64,000 nucleotides of DNA from Cognaticolwellia sediminilitoris (GTDB lineage: Bacteria > Pseudomonadota > Gammaproteobacteria > Enterobacterales > Alteromonadaceae), in the NCBI GenBank assembly GCA_002104535.1, contig NBOG01000006.1:361817-425816 (forward strand). The letters run 5' to 3'. This document shows positions 41,218 to 47,672 of the stretch, in pieces; position 1 is the first letter of the stretch, and every line of letters begins with the position of its first letter. Below the pieces are notes generated by a model. It was not told the origin of the DNA. It ran no database searches and saw only the letters and a program-made list of their open reading frames with translations. A program made the position numbers and the translations under genes.

Positions 41218-42378
41218 TTAAAGCCTATCAGTAGTGATTGATAACAAAAACTTATCAAATTTTTCTAATGTATTGGCAAAGCTTTTTTGGCCTAAACCGA
41301 TACGAAAATAGTTACCCGGCAAACCAAAAAGCTCACTAGGCAGTGCCAACACGCCACTTTTTTTCACCAAATTTTCTGCCCCATCCATCATTGAGTCAAT
41401 ATTATTAACTTCTACTAACGCCAAAGTCCCCGCTTTCGGCGGGTGCCAACTTAGCAATGATTGATGTCGAGAAATAAACGCTGCAAATAGCGCTATATTA
41501 TCAACTATGATGTCGTTATTAACCGCGATTATTTCCGCACTACTTTGCAGTGCTATTGTCGCGAGAGTTTCGTCTATTTTCGAGCAACAAATTGACTGTT
41601 TTGCTTTCATAGCGAGCAAATTGTTTACTATTACCTTGTTCGGCGTTACTGCCCAACCAATTCGAACGCCAGCTAATCCTAAGCTCTTAGACATGACTCC
41701 TACAATGATGCTGTTTTCATAATCAAGATAGCGATGTGCTAATGCTAGCTCTAAATAATTACTCGCTTGAGAAACATCATCACTTAATAAAAAACACTGA
41801 TATTGTTGAGTCAATACTAATACTTGTTCAGCCAGTATTGAATCAATAACACTACCGGTTGGATTATGAGGCGAGTTAAGCACAATCATGCGTGTTCTCT
41901 CACTAATAACACCTTTGAAGTCTTCGATATCTACTTGCCACTGCTTCTCGGGCTTAAGAGCAACCTCCTTGACAACAACGCCCATCGACTTTGCCATATT
42001 AACTAAAGATGGATAACTCGGTGTCATAACAATAATTTCATCACCTGCAGACAACACGGCTTGATAAATAGCAAATAGCGCTTCTTGTGCACCGCAAAAA
42101 GTGACAGCATCTTCTGCGGATAACTCACGGCTATGACAATTAAAGCTTTGGTGAAAGTTTACTATTTCAGTGCGCAAGGCTTTATAACCTTGCACAGGTG
42201 AATAATCGAGACGAATTGCGCCAATATCAATCGAACTAAACCGACACAACTGCTCTAAAGTTAAAGCCTGTGCCGTTGAATCACTTAGATTACACTTAAC
42301 AAACCGCGCTAAATTTTTACTAAAAGCAATATGTTTTGGCAATGCCTGCAAAGCTATTGCAACGTTATCATCCGCCAT
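41218..42378 (-). CDS. PLP-dependent fold-type I enzyme next to ovoA; aminotransferase or OvoB-like C-S lyase
   Basis: The 386-residue protein belongs to the class I/II aminotransferase fold: NSPHNPTGSV, LLSDDVSQ (the Asp that contacts the pyridine N), the lysine motif VMSKSLGLAGVRIGW and YFRIGLG near the end. In ovothiol synthesis the sulfoxide made by OvoA is cleaved by OvoB, a PLP lyase of this general type. The gene starts 1 bp after the ovoA stop, so OvoB is a good candidate. A plain transaminase acting on a thiohistidine cannot be excluded. The longer frame (to 42447) would overlap ovoA and is not used. Confidence 0.7.
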   Translation of the reverse strand: MADDNVAIALQALPKHIAFSKNLARFVKCNLSDSTAQALTLEQLCRFSSIDIGAIRLDYSPVQGYKALRTEIVNFHQSFNCHSRELSAEDAVTFCGAQEALFAIYQAVLSAGDEIIVMTPSYPSLVNMAKSMGVVVKEVALKPEKQWQVDIEDFKGVISERTRMIVLNSPHNPTGSVIDSILAEQVLVLTQQYQCFLLSDDVSQASNYLELALAHRYLDYENSIIVGVMSKSLGLAGVRIGWAVTPNKVIVNNLLAMKAKQSICCSKIDETLATIALQSSAEIIAVNNDIIVDNIALFAAFISRHQSLLSWHPPKAGTLALVEVNNIDSMMDGAENLVKKSGVLALPSELFGLPGNYFRIGLGQKSFANTLEKFDKFLLSITTDRL

Positions 42379-42379
42379 A

Positions 42380-44488
42380 CTATTTTGCCCGCCAAGCGGT
42401 AAAATGACTGCGAGATAAAGTAAAGTTGCGTGCGGACTCTTTAACAACCTGTGTTAATTCCTGTTCCGTTATCAGCTCAAACATACTGCCAAGTTGCTCA
42501 GTTAAGGCATCAAAACCTGATAAATTTTCACCGTTAACTTTTATTCCTCCCAACCATTTAGCTTTTTCAGTGGTTTGTTCTAGATATTGATAGTCTGAAA
42601 TAACTATCAATATGCCTTTTGAATTTAACCGACTAACGGCATTTGATAATAAACGCTTGGGATCATAACTTTGCTCTAACGCATGTTGGATCAAAACAAC
42701 ATCATATTCATTGAAGTTTTCTTTGAGGTTACAGCCATCAGCTTGGCTAAATAATATCTGCTTAGGCTTCGACTCCATAACGGTTTTAGCTAAGCTAATT
42801 TCATTATATTGACAAATGTCACCTTCAACCTTGCTGGTATAGCGGACATTCTTGCCAGATTGAAGTTGTACGCCATGTTGGATGGTACGAGCAGAAAAAT
42901 CAACCGCATCAATATGTTGAAAATACCGACTGAGTTCAAATGCTACTCGCCCGACACTACAACCTAAATTTAACAAACGTTGTGTTCCAACACTTTCTGT
43001 ATTGATCACACTGGAAACTTGTTGCGCAATTTGCTCGCCATAGTTTTCAAAACCCAAGGCACTATTACCAAAATAACAATCAAGTTGTTGGCAAATGTCA
43101 TCACTTTTTTCGTAGCTATTAATCGGCAGTTGAGCGTCGCTTCGTTTATCGCTAATGACATACCTAAAACCGGCATGTTGATAAAAATGACGACGAAAAG
43201 CATAGCGAGATGATGCTAATGTTTCATTACCCGTTGAGATCCAAGATCCCCCTTTAATTAAATTGTGTTTTGAGTCAAAAGTAGGGGTTGAAAAGTCATC
43301 GTACAGCGGATGTACACTAAAGCCTGTAAAACCATCAATTGCTGATTGTGTCCATTGCCATACATTACCGATAATATCGAAAAATTCCCCCTGCCGATGA
43401 ACATTCACTGGGCATGAGGATGCATAATAGGATAAATCTAAATTACCGGGTACTTCATGCCATTGATGTTGATCGCCTTCAACAAAGTCACGAAGACAAT
43501 ACCATTGCGCCTCGGTAGGTAAACTAATATATCCTGTTATACTTTTTTGACGCCACTGACAATACGCTTTCGATTCAAGGCAGTTTACTTCTACAGGCCA
43601 ATCAAGCGGTAATGGCATTTCGTTAAGTAAATTTCTTTGATAATATTGACCATCACGTTGGAGCCAAAATTTAGGCATTTCGGCTTTAGTAAACTCTAAC
43701 CACGCTTGCCCTTCTTGACACCAATACTTCTTTTCCTTATATCCACCAGCTTCAACAAACGCTAGGTATTCTTGATTCGACACTAAATATTTTGCGGCAC
43801 TAAAATCATCAACCTTGACTGATTGCTGACCATACTCATTATCCCAACCATAGGTGTTATCTTGAGATTTTTTACCTAATAATAAAGTACGCCCTTTTAC
43901 AGGTATTAATTCATTTTTTGGCGCTTCACCAGATTGTAAACACGGTTGCCATAGCGGGTTAGCATTTAACTTATTTAACGGTAACATGCGCATGATCACA
44001 GATGATGTTTCAAGATGAATACGTTCATGTTCACAGCCCATTAGAATGATCCAAGCCAGCGAGTCTTGTTTGATTGGTAACGTTAATTCCATGGTTTCAA
44101 TCAAGTTTAAAACTAAGTCATAAACTTGTTGTCTATATTTTCGTACTTCATCAACGCTTGGCCAATCATAATGCTCGCTGTTCAAGTCATCCCAACTCAT
44201 TTCATCAACACCGACAGCACATATAGCTTCTATTCGACTATTGACCCTATGGGTAATGTATTTTCCAAGTATCAGTTTATTTACGTAAAAAGTCGCGGTA
44301 TGTCCAAAGTAAAACACCAGCGGATGTCGCAGGGGTTCAGGGCGGAGGAAGTAGGCATCGTCATGATTGATAAGAGAAAATAAAGACTCATAAGTCGACC
44401 ACGTATTTTTAAAATAGGCGCTTAACTCTTGTCGTTTTTCAGTAATAGAGATGCCATCAAGTGTTGGCGTATTTAGTTGCTTAATCAT
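42380..44488 (-). CDS. ovoA: OvoA: 5-histidylcysteine sulfoxide synthase / thiohistidine N-methyltransferase
   Basis: OvoA is a non-haem iron enzyme that joins cysteine to histidine C5 with O2. Its C-terminal domain later methylates the imidazole to give ovothiol A. The 702 residues contain a DinB-like domain with the iron ligand motif HERIHLE (H154, H158, E160) and H63, an FGE-sulfatase domain (about 195-450, with SLPTEAQWYCLRDFVEGD and IIGNVWQWTQSA), and a SAM methyltransferase domain (about 480-700, LLNLGCSVGRVAFEL, VDFSARTIQHG). Both halves are intact. It lies between a GS-like gene and a PLP-enzyme gene. Confidence 0.93.
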   Translation of the reverse strand: MIKQLNTPTLDGISITEKRQELSAYFKNTWSTYESLFSLINHDDAYFLRPEPLRHPLVFYFGHTATFYVNKLILGKYITHRVNSRIEAICAVGVDEMSWDDLNSEHYDWPSVDEVRKYRQQVYDLVLNLIETMELTLPIKQDSLAWIILMGCEHERIHLETSSVIMRMLPLNKLNANPLWQPCLQSGEAPKNELIPVKGRTLLLGKKSQDNTYGWDNEYGQQSVKVDDFSAAKYLVSNQEYLAFVEAGGYKEKKYWCQEGQAWLEFTKAEMPKFWLQRDGQYYQRNLLNEMPLPLDWPVEVNCLESKAYCQWRQKSITGYISLPTEAQWYCLRDFVEGDQHQWHEVPGNLDLSYYASSCPVNVHRQGEFFDIIGNVWQWTQSAIDGFTGFSVHPLYDDFSTPTFDSKHNLIKGGSWISTGNETLASSRYAFRRHFYQHAGFRYVISDKRSDAQLPINSYEKSDDICQQLDCYFGNSALGFENYGEQIAQQVSSVINTESVGTQRLLNLGCSVGRVAFELSRYFQHIDAVDFSARTIQHGVQLQSGKNVRYTSKVEGDICQYNEISLAKTVMESKPKQILFSQADGCNLKENFNEYDVVLIQHALEQSYDPKRLLSNAVSRLNSKGILIVISDYQYLEQTTEKAKWLGGIKVNGENLSGFDALTEQLGSMFELITEQELTQVVKESARNFTLSRSHFTAWRAK

Positions 44489-44535
44489 GTAATTTCACTT
44501 GGTATTATTATTCGCTTAATTTGGCTTTAGCCCTG

Positions 44536-45633
44536 CTAAATATAGATTTTAGGCCGCTGAAATTTTTGTAAATATGCTTGCTTAATTTGTTGTCCTACAC
44601 TCAAACCAGAGTTCGCTGTGTCATGTTTAATTTTATCAATTAGTACTCTATCAATCGTTTTATTAAACCAATCATTATTGGCAAATAATGCAATTGCCCC
44701 TGGCGTGTCTTGTTGATCATATAACGAGGTTGGTAGTGCACTATTACTCGAATATGTAACATCATTAGATGTATCATCGATGGTATCAATAACATTTAAT
44801 AAAGCATAAATAACATTAAGGTAAGCATTATAATGGACGCTAGATGCACCTAACCGGTGCTCTATTCTGGCTGTTTTATGCCAATTTTCATGGCTGACCA
44901 GAACGTTATTTCTATTGTCGTATAACAAGGGTTCAAGCCCCATCTTTTGATTGTGCTTACCAATATCTCGATATAAAGCGATACTGCCTTGATGGCCACC
45001 AGAAATATCAACCGGTGAACATAATTCTTCTGCTAAACCGTATTTTGACTTTAACATTAAACGTTCAAAGGCATCTTCTTCGGGTAAATACAGTAAACAA
45101 CAGGCTAAACTAGTTTGTAAAAAATGGGCTTGTAAGCGCTCGCCGAAATCACCTGAAACAAGTAAATTATTCCCTTGTTTATCTTGCACACTAACATTAA
45201 TTTGTATCGCATTAGGAATATGGACAGCACGATTATCGCCACTAAATATATTCTCACATCCGATTGCTAACTTACCTTTATCTCCAGACCATACTACCGG
45301 TTTAATCAAAGTATTTTTCACACCTTGTGCAGCAAATAAACTGGGTAATAAATTAATAGCCCTATGCAGGTTTTGCGCTTCTTTTAATGGGCTTTGGCCA
45401 TTAAAGAGTGAAACATACTCCCACTGATTGCTCCAATACTCAGCGACTACTTCTCCATCAATACCAAAGGCTAATAACTTCTTGTTTAGCGCTTTGTAAT
45501 CAATTGGTTTATTGAAAGGCTTTTGATAGCAGCCTTCTAGCTCAAAGTGGATTAATGCACGAAACCCGCGTTCACTAATGTACGTTTGTAAACTAGAAAT
45601 TATTGTTTCTAATAGCTGATTAAAACTATTCAT
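44536..45633 (-). CDS. Divergent glutamine-synthetase-fold protein upstream of ovoA
   Basis: The 365 residues resemble the catalytic half of glutamine synthetases. ALIHFELEG (about 26-34) stands at the E-x-E strand. VVAEYWSNQWE (62-72) stands at the E-(x)5-Q-x-E metal site. LHRAINLLPSLFAAQGVKNTLIKP follows as in GS, and ARIEHRLGASSVHYNAYL (255-272) matches the R-x-E-x-R and NPYL region. The NGSGMHxH nucleotide loop is replaced by NAIQINVSV, so activity is uncertain. An ATP-dependent amide ligase acting on a glutamate or thiohistidine substrate is one inference. First gene of the putative operon, 47 bp before ovoA. Confidence 0.65.
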   Translation of the reverse strand: MNSFNQLLETIISSLQTYISERGFRALIHFELEGCYQKPFNKPIDYKALNKKLLAFGIDGEVVAEYWSNQWEYVSLFNGQSPLKEAQNLHRAINLLPSLFAAQGVKNTLIKPVVWSGDKGKLAIGCENIFSGDNRAVHIPNAIQINVSVQDKQGNNLLVSGDFGERLQAHFLQTSLACCLLYLPEEDAFERLMLKSKYGLAEELCSPVDISGGHQGSIALYRDIGKHNQKMGLEPLLYDNRNNVLVSHENWHKTARIEHRLGASSVHYNAYLNVIYALLNVIDTIDDTSNDVTYSSNSALPTSLYDQQDTPGAIALFANNDWFNKTIDRVLIDKIKHDTANSGLSVGQQIKQAYLQKFQRPKIYI

Positions 45634-45812: not shown

Positions 45813-47672
45813 TTAAAAAACACAAATTTGATTTTTACCAAGATGCTTGGCTTGATAAAGTGCTTGATCAGCATTGATATATAATTGGTTGGCATCGACT
45901 GATTGGGCTGAGTGTGCGGCAATACCAATACTGACAGTGACAGACTGTTCATTATCCTTCAGCAATTGAGAGACATTAATCAACGCGAGAAAACGCTCTG
46001 CGATTTTTTTTGCTTTAATAATATCAGTTCTAGGTAAAACACATAAAAACTCTTCGCCACCAATACGACCGAAAATATCATCTTGTCGAAATACCTCCTG
46101 GCCTAGTTTTGCGATTTGTCGAATCACATCATCGCCGACAGGGTGGCCATAAGTATCATTAATTTTTTTAAAGTCATCAATATCGATTAAAATTATCGAT
46201 AGTTGTATTTTGTCAGGATGACTACCAGCTAAAGCAGAATGTAAATAATCAAAAATGTAACGACGATTGAACAAACCAGACAATGAATCTTTCGTTGATA
46301 ATAAATGCATTTTTTTATTGGTGCGGTATTGTGACAAGATCACCAACAAAACAAGTAAAGCTAGCCCCAAAACAAAAAACTTAAAGTAACGCTCTTGGCT
46401 ATTAAACCTTTGCCTTTTATCTTTCTCTAGCATTGTAACTTGTGAACGTTTCTCTGCTAACGTTTGTGCTAATTCTTGACGTTCAATTTCCATCCGAGCT
46501 CTAACTTTATGTAAACGCTGAGACGCATTAACTAATAATAGATTGGTGTATTTTTCATGATATTGTTCAAGCATGTTGTAGCTAACGTCATATTGACCCC
46601 GTGCATATGCAAGCTTGCTTGAAATTTTTATTACTTCAAGTTGCCATGTTGTGCCCATTAATTCAGGTATGTTTGCAAAAATACTGGCAGCATTAAAAAT
46701 TGACTTTTCGGCTTTATCCAATTGCCCTAACTCTATTAAACAAGTTGCCTTACGTTTATAAAGTTCCGCGTTGTAATCAATTACACCTTTGAGTTTCAAT
46801 GCTTGGTCTATAATGGGTATTGCTTGATCGCAATCCCCCTTTTCAGCCAAGGTCATACCAATGCCGTAAGCCGAAAAAAATTTTATATTTGAATTTGGAG
46901 TATAGTCAATTTGTTGTCCATATTTTTCAAAATACTCAATAGCGAGATCATATTTTTTCCAGTATCGATAAGTAGATGCTAAGCCATAAATGGCTTCGGC
47001 AACATGGGCTGGATAATTTAAGGTTTGATAGGCTTCAAATGCTTTTTGATAATAATCGATCGACTTTTTATAATCGTTTAAATAGCCATAGATAGCACCA
47101 TAGGTTTCATTTATTGAAGCAATTAGAAACTGATCTTTTAAAGCGAAAGCTTCAACGTAAGCTTCTTGAATGTCCACCATGGAAGTTTCAAAGATTTCTG
47201 TCAGGGTTTTTGTGTAAGCTAGCTCTTGTTTACCAAAAACATATAAACTACTTAGGTTAGCTTCTTTTGCCTGCAATAGTGACTTGGAAAGTAATTCTTG
47301 TGAACGACTGTATTCACCTTGCCTTCGATTAATTAATCCTTGAAATAAACTTAAACGCGCTTGAATAGCTAAGGGCGTTTGATGAGTGACTAGATTACTA
47401 GCTTGTTCAACTGAGCGATTAAAATCATCGTAAAAATAAATTAGGTTTTCTGTCTGTGCTTTTCGCAGTAACCACCACAAATAGGTTAATTCATCGTAGG
47501 ATTGAGCGGCAACCTGTAAATCCATCAATTGTTGATAAGACTGCCAAGGGTCAAGATAAATACTATGATCCATTTCGACAAAATTAATTTCATCATCTGC
47601 GACTGCAAATAATGAGCAACTAAACAGTATTAAAAATAAGGTTGTGTAATAAGCTTGCAAAGCTTTCTTCAT
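45813..47672 (-). CDS. TPR-containing diguanylate cyclase (GGDEF)
   Basis: The 619-residue protein makes c-di-GMP. It has a signal peptide (ending FAVADD), a periplasmic region of helical tetratricopeptide-type repeats (about 80-370), a coiled-coil stretch, one membrane helix (about 424-442, FFVLGLALLVLLVIL), and a GGDEF domain with active-site GGEEF (near 538-542) preceded by an RxxD inhibitory site (RQDD). It is therefore likely active and product-inhibited, sensing a periplasmic protein or ligand. It is transcribed alone. Confidence 0.92.
   Translation of the reverse strand: MKKALQAYYTTLFLILFSCSLFAVADDEINFVEMDHSIYLDPWQSYQQLMDLQVAAQSYDELTYLWWLLRKAQTENLIYFYDDFNRSVEQASNLVTHQTPLAIQARLSLFQGLINRRQGEYSRSQELLSKSLLQAKEANLSSLYVFGKQELAYTKTLTEIFETSMVDIQEAYVEAFALKDQFLIASINETYGAIYGYLNDYKKSIDYYQKAFEAYQTLNYPAHVAEAIYGLASTYRYWKKYDLAIEYFEKYGQQIDYTPNSNIKFFSAYGIGMTLAEKGDCDQAIPIIDQALKLKGVIDYNAELYKRKATCLIELGQLDKAEKSIFNAASIFANIPELMGTTWQLEVIKISSKLAYARGQYDVSYNMLEQYHEKYTNLLLVNASQRLHKVRARMEIERQELAQTLAEKRSQVTMLEKDKRQRFNSQERYFKFFVLGLALLVLLVILSQYRTNKKMHLLSTKDSLSGLFNRRYIFDYLHSALAGSHPDKIQLSIILIDIDDFKKINDTYGHPVGDDVIRQIAKLGQEVFRQDDIFGRIGGEEFLCVLPRTDIIKAKKIAERFLALINVSQLLKDNEQSVTVSIGIAAHSAQSVDANQLYINADQALYQAKHLGKNQICVF

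Follow-up and report, generated by a model that had tools for sequence, protein, structure and literature searches.

A gene for a glutamine synthetase (GS)-like protein is strictly linked to ovoA in Cognaticolwellia sediminilitoris and its relatives. ovoA adjoins this gene in 53 of the 53 genomes of the window's family that carry it, and in a wider scan 64 of 65 loci show the two genes as neighbours on one strand, the remaining locus ending at a contig edge; in view of these two counts, the adjacency is not a matter of chance. The window is the whole stretch of DNA that was analysed, 64,000 nucleotides in length. As judged from profile-profile alignment and a predicted structure, the protein shows ancestry in the GS superfamily and keeps the metal carboxylates typical of GS. 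By its residues it is no ordinary GS, as it has no N-terminal domain and has replaced His269, His271 and the NGSG motif. The findings suggest that Colwellia-group marine bacteria convert an antioxidant thiohistidine to a new product.

According to the available text of a 2025 report (PMC12631010), finding enzymes that utilize 5-thiohistidine is a critical prerequisite to grasping the role of such thiols, and besides its own 5-thiohistidine N-acetyltransferase (5THNAT), OvoA alone is known there to recognize a 5-thiohistidine derivative. The GS-like protein, never seen apart from OvoA in the genomes surveyed, found in two proteobacterial classes and equipped with a GS-type metal site, makes a strong candidate for the next 5-thiohistidine enzyme. 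A literature search by title and start of abstract, incomplete in its coverage, returned no paper on a GS-like neighbour of ovoA, and within that literature the protein is undescribed. If the proposed role is true, marine bacteria would have a low-molecular-weight thiol system next to those of glutathione and ovothiol A, and a GS-superfamily protein would be seen to manage without the domain by which the active site of GS is completed.

Linkage of the GS-like gene to ovoA

The three minus-strand reading frames are intact and arranged as an earlier note on this DNA had described them, with gaps of 47 and 1 bp, the latter between ovoA and the gene of the pyridoxal phosphate (PLP)-dependent enzyme (Table 1). 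A TTG start of the PLP gene upstream of its ATG would run into OvoA. The description of the locus as an ovothiol-type cluster is likewise supported.

Table 1. Features of the ovoA locus, with positions in the window.
Feature	Position	Strand	Description
GS-like gene	44536..45633	-	365 aa; GS-superfamily catalytic domain only; unnamed family tied to OvoA
GS-like gene/ovoA gap	44489..44535	-	47 bp, read from sequence
ovoA	42380..44488	-	702 aa; 5-histidylcysteine sulfoxide synthase and C-terminal thiohistidine N-methyltransferase domain
PLP-dependent enzyme gene	41218..42378	-	386 aa; GntC/PRK07324/VioD-like; candidate C-S lyase (OvoB role)

Among 196 genomes of the window's family, 53 carried both genes, 13 carried OvoA alone and none the GS-like gene alone (Fisher test of co-occurrence, 7e-36, with kinship among genomes ignored). 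"Family" here means the collection's own unnamed group, and the genome samples are biased by relatedness; the listings of GS-like, ovoA, PLP and PatB genes over this set were matched up by eye. The 65 loci were obtained by scanning 84,980 species genomes with two short peptide patterns, so more diverged relatives of the GS-like gene would escape the scan. Over the 64 loci the gap to ovoA ranged from -41 to 103 bp (median 21), the two genes shared a strand in every case (64/64), and the GS-like gene stood ahead of ovoA at 62. The pairing that the earlier note had read from one locus is thus kept in relatives. The conserved co-occurrence of three genes that it had proposed to look for is strict for the GS-like gene and ovoA and does not extend to the PLP gene, a looser partner present at 27 of the 65 loci and in 36 of the 53 GS-positive genomes. 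Divergence of the GS-like protein and of OvoA is correlated (r 0.86-0.87, shared species history included).

OvoA is the only constant neighbour of the GS-like gene, and no other partner gene is fixed. A link to nitrogen metabolism through PII (glnK) and amtB genes behind ovoA was considered and rejected, as these genes are found at only 10/65 loci, 199-304 bp off. One same-genus genome (G143) has the GS-like gene broken over two frames, and one draft genome (G032) has ovoA and lacks the GS-like gene.

The GS-like family spans two proteobacterial classes. In two Robiginitomaculum MAGs (Alphaproteobacteria) the gene lies beside an OvoA without a methyltransferase domain, and no such domain above cut-off was found elsewhere in these MAGs, for which completeness is not given; thiohistidine methylation thus seems unneeded for the GS-like partner. 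Profile searches at class level (369 genomes) and at phylum level (398 genomes) detected no members beyond the window's family. In 27 ovoA carriers that lack the GS-like gene, a search of the whole genomes gave a single chance match (E 0.24) and no member, and plasmids and viral contigs likewise yielded no relative. Over the 398 genomes, profile A2 had one out-of-family match (G645, E 8.8e-4, which is weak over so many genomes). The matched protein is a GS relative and not a member of the GS-like family, and its best NCBIfam model, below cut-off, is gamma-glutamylputrescine synthetase.

Ancestry and active site of the GS-like protein

The GS fold of the window protein is invisible to single-sequence family searches: Pfam gave no hits, NCBIfam a single chance match (E 0.12), a search of PDB sequences another (E 0.059), and a PDB profile search nothing significant. 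When 52 members (the window protein and 51 relatives) were scanned with Pfam and NCBIfam, none could be named, the matches being weak and scattered (best E 0.0091 and 0.002, respectively); Gln-synt_C matched two of the 52 (best E 0.036) and not the window protein. Profile-profile alignment with hhalign matched the family to GS at 92.9% (E 3.6e-7, residues 9-325), compared with at most 1.2% for decoy profiles. An AlphaFold2 model (pLDDT 88.3, pTM 0.90), with its lowest confidence at residues 207-214 beside the active site, gave a best Foldseek E of 2.7e-11. The best 50 matches listed per search were all GS or GS relatives, NpaA1 and GmaS structures included, and superposition reached only a TM of about 0.57 with an rmsd of 7-10 A. 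The alignment and the structure comparison thereby bear out the GS fold proposed in the earlier note, while its term "ATP-grasping" ligase was the wrong label, the GS superfamily not having the ATP-grasp fold. Matches to methylaspartate ammonia-lyase, seen for 4/52 members (Pfam E 0.0091) and in the PDB profile search (E 0.34), were taken as chance because they span only residues ~12-80 and clash with the predicted fold.

The N-terminal beta-grasp domain that carries Asp50 is absent, residue 9 of the GS-like protein aligning with GlnA residue 105, and the open frames listed at 30 loci (372-436 codons) reach at most 53 codons ahead of the family start. In GS, this domain is supplied by the adjoining subunit and completes the active site. 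Of the six metal-site residues, five are retained: E31, E33, E65, E72 and E258 align with GS E129, E131, E212, E220 and E357, the last of which we take to be a metal ligand, and are kept in all readable rows of a 66-member alignment. R191 (the counterpart of R321, which concerns glutamate in GS), R256 and E203 are found in 66/66 members and R260 in 65/65 readable ones. The five glutamates, the flap-like Glu203 and the three arginines persist down to about 40% identity, and K226, H227 and Q229 are invariant in the family. Alignment A3 was made without L093, which contains runs of X.

Other parts of the site have changed. All 66 members have Gln144 in place of the metal ligand His269 and Asn146 in place of the ADP-phosphate ligand H271; the counterpart of R344 (ADP phosphate) is lost, with no Arg at its place; the glutamate-holding NGSG (N264/G265) has become IPNA; and an extra hairpin is inserted ahead of the IPNAIQIN strand. 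Since the counterparts of His269, H271 and R344 are replaced or lost, ATP binding would need remodelling. The available text of PMC5403932 gives E129, E131, E212 and E220 as metal ligands of GS and places the glutamate pair at 207/214 in GlnA3 and 180/187 in PauA7 (spacing 7), against 212/220 in GSI. The spacing of E65 and E72 in the GS-like protein is also 7, as in GlnA3 and PauA7. Like the gamma-glutamylamine/polyamine synthetases PauA7, GlnA2/GlnA3 and NpaA1, it has the metal-site glutamates and a counterpart of R321. Unlike these synthetases, it is a protein of 365 aa without the beta-grasp domain and with the inserted hairpin, it has Q for H269, N for H271 and no R344 counterpart, and aligned identity is 12-20%.

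OvoA and the PLP-dependent enzyme

The OvoA of the window, which the earlier note had called intact, exceeds the curated cut-offs of both the sulfoxide synthase model TIGR04344 (656 bits, cut-off 400) and the methyltransferase model TIGR04345 (246 bits, cut-off 170), and its best PDB match is 8khq (E 2e-216). On these domain matches it is a full ovothiol synthase with a methyltransferase domain. Some OvoAs of this domain layout have no GS-like partner. Comparison of 65 sequences with and 25 without the partner gave 9 group-specific positions, none of them in the methyltransferase domain (L132 and L156 were omitted from this count; the OvoA tree excludes L157 and L158, two OvoA-like proteins that score under the cut-off). 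Two GS-less OvoAs inside the partner clade each have 5/9 of these positions. The Robiginitomaculum OvoA has a partner, yet 0/9, so no OvoA change tracks the GS-like partner. The idea that a changed OvoA substrate site indicates a ligase acting before OvoA was dropped, the nine positions marking the clade and not the partner.

The PLP-dependent protein matches PF00155 (145 bits) and Alliinase_C (25.1 bits, cut-off 22) in Pfam. Its best NCBIfam models are GntC (228 bits), PRK07324 (208 bits) and VioD (192 bits), compared with 109 bits for eukaryote-type tyrosine transaminase and 97 bits for HisC, all under cut-off, and it thus stands apart from the histidinol-phosphate and aromatic aminotransferases that the earlier note had weighed. 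The PatB-type C-S lyase model TIGR04350 gives 101.5 bits, below its cut-off of 340. From linkage and from complementarity with PatB, the protein is plausibly the OvoB of this lineage. All 36 close relatives (E <= 1e-80) in the 196 genomes lie directly behind ovoA, and a PatB-type lyase is found in 7/36 genomes with the PLP gene versus 20/30 ovoA genomes without it (Fisher 1.4e-4, kinship ignored), or 7/36 versus 8/17 among GS-positive genomes only (p 0.053, kinship ignored). At least three GS-less ovoA genes have a PatB-type lyase gene directly behind them. Behind another GS-less ovoA (L134) lies a distant relative (27% identity) from the class of the window's PLP protein; that genome (G065), which encodes a PatB-type lyase too, is one of the 30 ovoA genomes without the PLP gene.

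The protein may instead be a transaminase or other tailoring enzyme, with general lyases cleaving the C-S bond. This fits the absence of a close relative from 17 of the 53 GS-positive genomes, nine of which also lack a PatB-type lyase, and the nature of the best NCBIfam models, which are cyclodehydratase-like or unspecified aminotransferases and of which none reaches its cut-off. We consider it unlikely given the invariable position behind ovoA, the complementarity with PatB-type lyases and the same-class relative behind L134. The locus resembles known ovothiol biosynthesis (OvoA, OvoB, OvoC domain) in its two-domain OvoA and in the PLP enzyme directly behind, and differs from it in a third gene fixed by ovoA, of a family unnamed in Pfam and NCBIfam, and in a PLP enzyme that is not PatB-type.

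Possible reaction of the GS-like protein

We regard it as possible, stopping a little short of probable, that the GS-like protein is a diverged metal-dependent carboxylate-amine ligase that acts after OvoA and forms an amide of 5-thiohistidine or ovothiol. The first steps would follow the known route: OvoA would couple His and Cys to the sulfoxide, from which a PLP lyase, here probably the product of 41218-42378, would free 5-thiohistidine. The GS-like protein may then divert 5-thiohistidine into a new step, converting a carboxylate to an acyl phosphate and joining it to an amine, with 5-thiohistidine or ovothiol as one of the partners. We infer the use of ATP, the ligation, the substrates and the action after OvoA. 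The linkage to ovoA, the GS ancestry, the conserved metal glutamates, the GlnA3/PauA7-like spacing of 7 and the lone out-of-family profile match (G645), a GS relative whose top NCBIfam model, under cut-off, is gamma-glutamylputrescine synthetase, count for a ligase, and the lack of an OvoA change that tracks the partner favours action after OvoA. The lost His269, H271, R344 and NGSG, the missing N-terminal domain, the Foldseek TM of about 0.57, the low model confidence beside the active site, the weak matches to methylaspartate ammonia-lyase, the lack of a constant partner gene besides OvoA, and the genomes G143 and G032 count against this reading.

The nearest guess at the product would be a gamma-glutamyl or other aminoacyl thiohistidine. 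The GS relatives aligning best with the family are six non-GlnA proteins, not proven gamma-glutamylamine ligases, and two of the six, scanned as partial sequences, fall under all cut-offs. The gamma-glutamyl guess is soft because these six are unproven and yield a more diverse profile than GlnA does. It is somewhat doubtful that the protein stands for a ligase family new to the GS superfamily, made up of a catalytic domain that lacks the beta-grasp domain and has a remodelled metal and phosphate site, devoted to thiohistidine metabolism only and forming an amide such as gamma-glutamyl-5-thiohistidine or beta-alanyl 'thio-carnosine'. The 5THNAT of Proteiniphilum is similarly an ovoA neighbour, sometimes with a methyltransferase-less OvoA, and has 5-thiohistidine as its substrate; unlike the GS-like protein, it is a GNAT-related acetyl-CoA enzyme of Bacteroidota, and its fold is unrelated (PMC12631010, available text).

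The loss of His269, the ADP-phosphate ligands and the N-terminal domain, together with divergence correlated with that of OvoA (r 0.87), would also suit a GS-fold subunit without catalytic function, serving to bind or stabilize OvoA. Such a role is rather improbable, as the five metal-site glutamates, Glu203 and R191/R256/R260 would be unneeded in a scaffold, and as OvoAs of the same domain layout do without the partner.

A ligase might also work upstream of OvoA. In mycobacterial ergothioneine synthesis gamma-glutamylcysteine is the feed of EgtB, and EgtA, a GS-superfamily gamma-glutamylcysteine ligase, serves this sulfoxide synthase. Here too a GS-superfamily protein is found alongside a sulfoxide synthase, with its gene mostly ahead of ovoA (62/64 loci), and a gamma-glutamyl or other derivative of Cys or His could be the substrate of OvoA. 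We hold this improbable, since OvoAs with and without the partner differ little in sequence and the nine group-specific positions are shared in part by GS-less OvoAs of the clade (5/9 each) and lacking in the partnered Robiginitomaculum protein (0/9). Unlike EgtA, moreover, the GS-like family has no GCS2/EgtA-type profile match (hhalign 0.3%, with 6 usable GCS2 sequences of 12).

Another GS-superfamily reaction on thiohistidine or the sulfoxide, such as the phosphotransfer to nitrogen of guanidino kinases, would agree with the remodelled phosphate-binding residues, the invariant K226, H227 and Q229 and the lack of the beta-grasp domain, which the superfamily's kinase and GCS branches share, and is very improbable, as both sequence and fold are closest to GS, including all of the best 50 Foldseek matches listed per search (GS or relatives).

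As for the ligase acting after OvoA, aminotransferase and beta-keto-acid genes are found behind the GS-like gene in Robiginitomaculum, and would fit a 'thio-carnosine'.

Linkage of a glutamine synthetase-like gene to ovoA

The glutamine synthetase-like (GS-like) gene, ovoA and the PLP gene are all intact and follow one another in the same orientation on the window's minus strand, within a 3.84-Mb genome (Cognaticolwellia; Alteromonadales, Colwelliaceae in NCBI taxonomy), and the 47- and 1-bp gaps between them reported in the earlier note were confirmed in the sequence. The sulfoxide synthase and methyltransferase domains of the ovothiol synthase OvoA both score above curated cut-offs, making its identification as an intact OvoA unambiguous; the solved structure nearest to it by sequence is 8khq. 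We regard the locus as an ovothiol cluster in which OvoA has a new, constant partner. No account of such a partner was found in the literature searched, which covers work on bacterial OvoA distribution and structure incompletely, and there is a realistic chance that it represents a new ligase family.

Coordinates of the cluster, its neighbours and related loci (L, locus handle; G, genome handle)
Feature	Coordinates or loci	Strand	Remarks
GS-like gene	44536-45633	minus	encodes P0003
ovoA	42380-44488	minus	
PLP gene	41218-42378	minus	
TPR-GGDEF protein gene	45813-47672	same as GS-like gene	179 bp upstream of GS-like gene
PII protein gene and amtB	L060, L061, L063-L067, L090, L091, L094	same as ovoA	behind ovoA
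Class III aminotransferase and beta-keto acid cleavage genes	L096 11146-13312; L097 11144-13310		Pfam on L096
GS relative	L189 427-1818 (G645)		
GS-like gene in two pieces	G143:C1:1249917-1251016		same genus

Conserved linkage of the GS-like gene to ovoA, the lack of which in relatives the earlier note named as refuting its reading, was borne out at two scales. In 196 genomes of the window's family, the GS-like gene occurs in 53 and OvoA in 66, and all 53 fall inside the 66, with adjacent coordinates (overlap compared by eye; Fisher 7e-36, uncorrected for relatedness). A scan over 84,980 species genomes yielded 65 loci, at 64 of which OvoA adjoins the GS-like gene; the 65th (L077) stops at a contig border. 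The paired genes share a strand in 64 of 64 cases, separated by -41 to 103 bp (median 21), and their divergences are correlated (r 0.87; 0.86 without Robiginitomaculum; uncorrected for shared ancestry). The next commonest neighbours in the fetched flanks are a GGDEF protein family (39/65) and the PLP enzyme (27/65), with all others at 19/65 or fewer; the TPR-GGDEF family provides the closest upstream ORF at 30 of 64 loci.

In a FastTree phylogeny of 92 OvoA sequences, the partnered enzymes fall in one 68-leaf clade (support 0.99) that includes just three OvoAs without a GS-like partner. One of these, at L132, still has a GGDEF-type gene upstream of ovoA, and so fits a loss of the GS-like gene. 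Whole-genome searches of 27 genomes with an unpartnered ovoA, the clade's three included, gave no GS-like member (one chance match, E 0.24).

Other genes recur behind ovoA. At 10 of 65 loci a PII protein gene with amtB lies 199-304 bp behind it on the same strand (Pfam on L064), reflecting either a link to nitrogen metabolism or chance. An FAD monooxygenase-like gene lies behind ovoA at seven Paraglaciecola loci (L074, L080, L081, L082, L084, L088 and L095); as a gene similar to it by eye lies upstream of the unpartnered ovoA of L130, its presence does not depend on the GS-like gene.

Fold and active site of the GS-like protein

P0003 gave zero matches in Pfam and only chance matches in NCBIfam and the PDB. 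When 52 GS-like members were scanned singly, the best models were methylaspartate ammonia-lyase in Pfam (E 0.0091, 4 members) and a copper oxidase in NCBIfam (E 0.002, 2 members), and Gln-synt_C was matched by two of the 52 (E 0.036). Judged by sequence, the protein is a member of a family without a name. Despite these empty family searches, the GS fold claimed earlier proved right. Against 17 glutamine synthetases and relatives, the profile of 66 members gave a co-linear alignment over residues 9-325 (92.9% probability, E 3.6e-7); decoys (15 families of neighbouring proteins plus three GS alignments that had been reversed) reached at most 1.2%, and the GCS2 family (six usable sequences) 0.3%. 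Six non-GlnA relatives scored 86.5% versus 4.1% for 11 GlnA sequences, a split that names no GS branch, since the six-sequence profile is more diverse and the two of these relatives that were scanned, as partial sequences, fell under every NCBIfam cut-off. Foldseek with an AlphaFold2 model (pLDDT 88.3, pTM 0.90) returned GS-superfamily structures only among the 50 matches listed (best E 2.7e-11, probability 1.00), as did an earlier model among the matches listed, and a TM-score of 0.57 with an rmsd of 7-10 Å makes the protein a distant relative of that superfamily.

E31, E33, E65, E72 and E258 (GS E129, E131, E212, E220 and E357), together with R191 (R321), R256 and R260 (R355 and R359), are kept in every readable row of the 66. 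An invariant Glu203, within ELCSP, occupies the place of the flap residue E327. The GS N-terminal domain (~100 residues, bearing Asp50) is missing, H269 and H271 are replaced by Q144 and N146 in 66/66 members, the NGSG motif reads IPNA, and R344 has no counterpart; K226, H227 and Q229 are invariant and new. This pattern would suit a metal site of GS type, putatively catalytic, whose substrate pocket differs. Apart from E357, R339, R355 and R359, which are general background on GSI, catalytic numbering is that of Salmonella GSI in PMC5403932, where the counterparts of E65 and E72 in GlnA3 and PauA7 are likewise 7 apart.

The GS relative at L189 is weakly matched by the GS-like profile (E 8.8e-4) through its C-terminal part, and its best NCBIfam model, below cut-off, is gamma-glutamylputrescine synthetase. 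The two-piece gene in G143 matches as overlapping fragments in different frames, through sequencing error or decay.

The PLP enzyme as candidate OvoB

The PLP enzyme is probably the OvoB, or C-S lyase partner of OvoA, of this lineage. This earlier proposal gains from the position of its 36 close relatives in the 196 genomes, all within ~230 bp behind ovoA, and loses from 17 GS-positive genomes without one. The top-scoring NCBIfam models, GntC, PRK07324 and VioD, all stay under their cut-offs; neither HisC, which had been the concern about an ordinary aminotransferase, nor PatB is among them, and the Pfam Alliinase_C cut-off is narrowly passed (25.1 vs 22 bits). A PatB-type lyase occurs in 7/36 genomes with the PLP enzyme versus 20/30 ovoA genomes without it (Fisher 1.4e-4, uncorrected for relatedness), and in GS-positive genomes only, in 7/36 versus 8/17 (p 0.053), the other nine of the 17 having neither enzyme. 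Behind one unpartnered ovoA (L134) lies a same-class relative of the PLP enzyme, in a genome carrying a PatB-type lyase as well.

At three further unpartnered ovoA loci (L135, L137 and L141, in G068, G100 and G168), a different PLP enzyme with a sub-cut-off PatB match lies directly behind, and PLP enzymes beside the unpartnered ovoA of L150-L152 resemble these by eye. Recruitment of C-S lyases may have happened repeatedly.

Proposed pathway and the Robiginitomaculum outgroup

In the most economical reading, OvoA and a PLP lyase would produce 5-thiohistidine, which the GS-like ligase would then convert to an amide. OvoAs with and without the partner (65 vs 25 sequences) differ at only nine group-specific positions, none in the methyltransferase domain. 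Two unpartnered OvoAs of the same clade each have five of the nine and a partnered Robiginitomaculum OvoA has none, so these positions mark the clade and not the partner; differences so few suggest a ligase acting after OvoA. A precedent for such a step is 5THNAT, an ovoA neighbour that N-acetylates 5-thiohistidine according to PMC12631010, although it is unrelated to the GS-like protein.

In two Robiginitomaculum MAGs (Alphaproteobacteria), OvoA is 470-478 aa long without a methyltransferase domain, and elsewhere in both (completeness not given) no OvoA-type methyltransferase scored above cut-off; the GS-like partner thus tracks the sulfoxide synthase rather than methylation. The GS-like gene follows OvoA by 4 bp, and two further genes come next, one for a class III aminotransferase and one for a beta-keto acid cleavage enzyme, a possible hint at the ligase co-substrate. 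The GlnA3/PauA7-like spacing and GS ancestry suggest gamma-glutamate as a soft guess, and the Robiginitomaculum neighbours beta-alanine as a looser one. Behind these neighbours, on the opposite strand, lies a gene that by eye resembles a TonB-type receptor.
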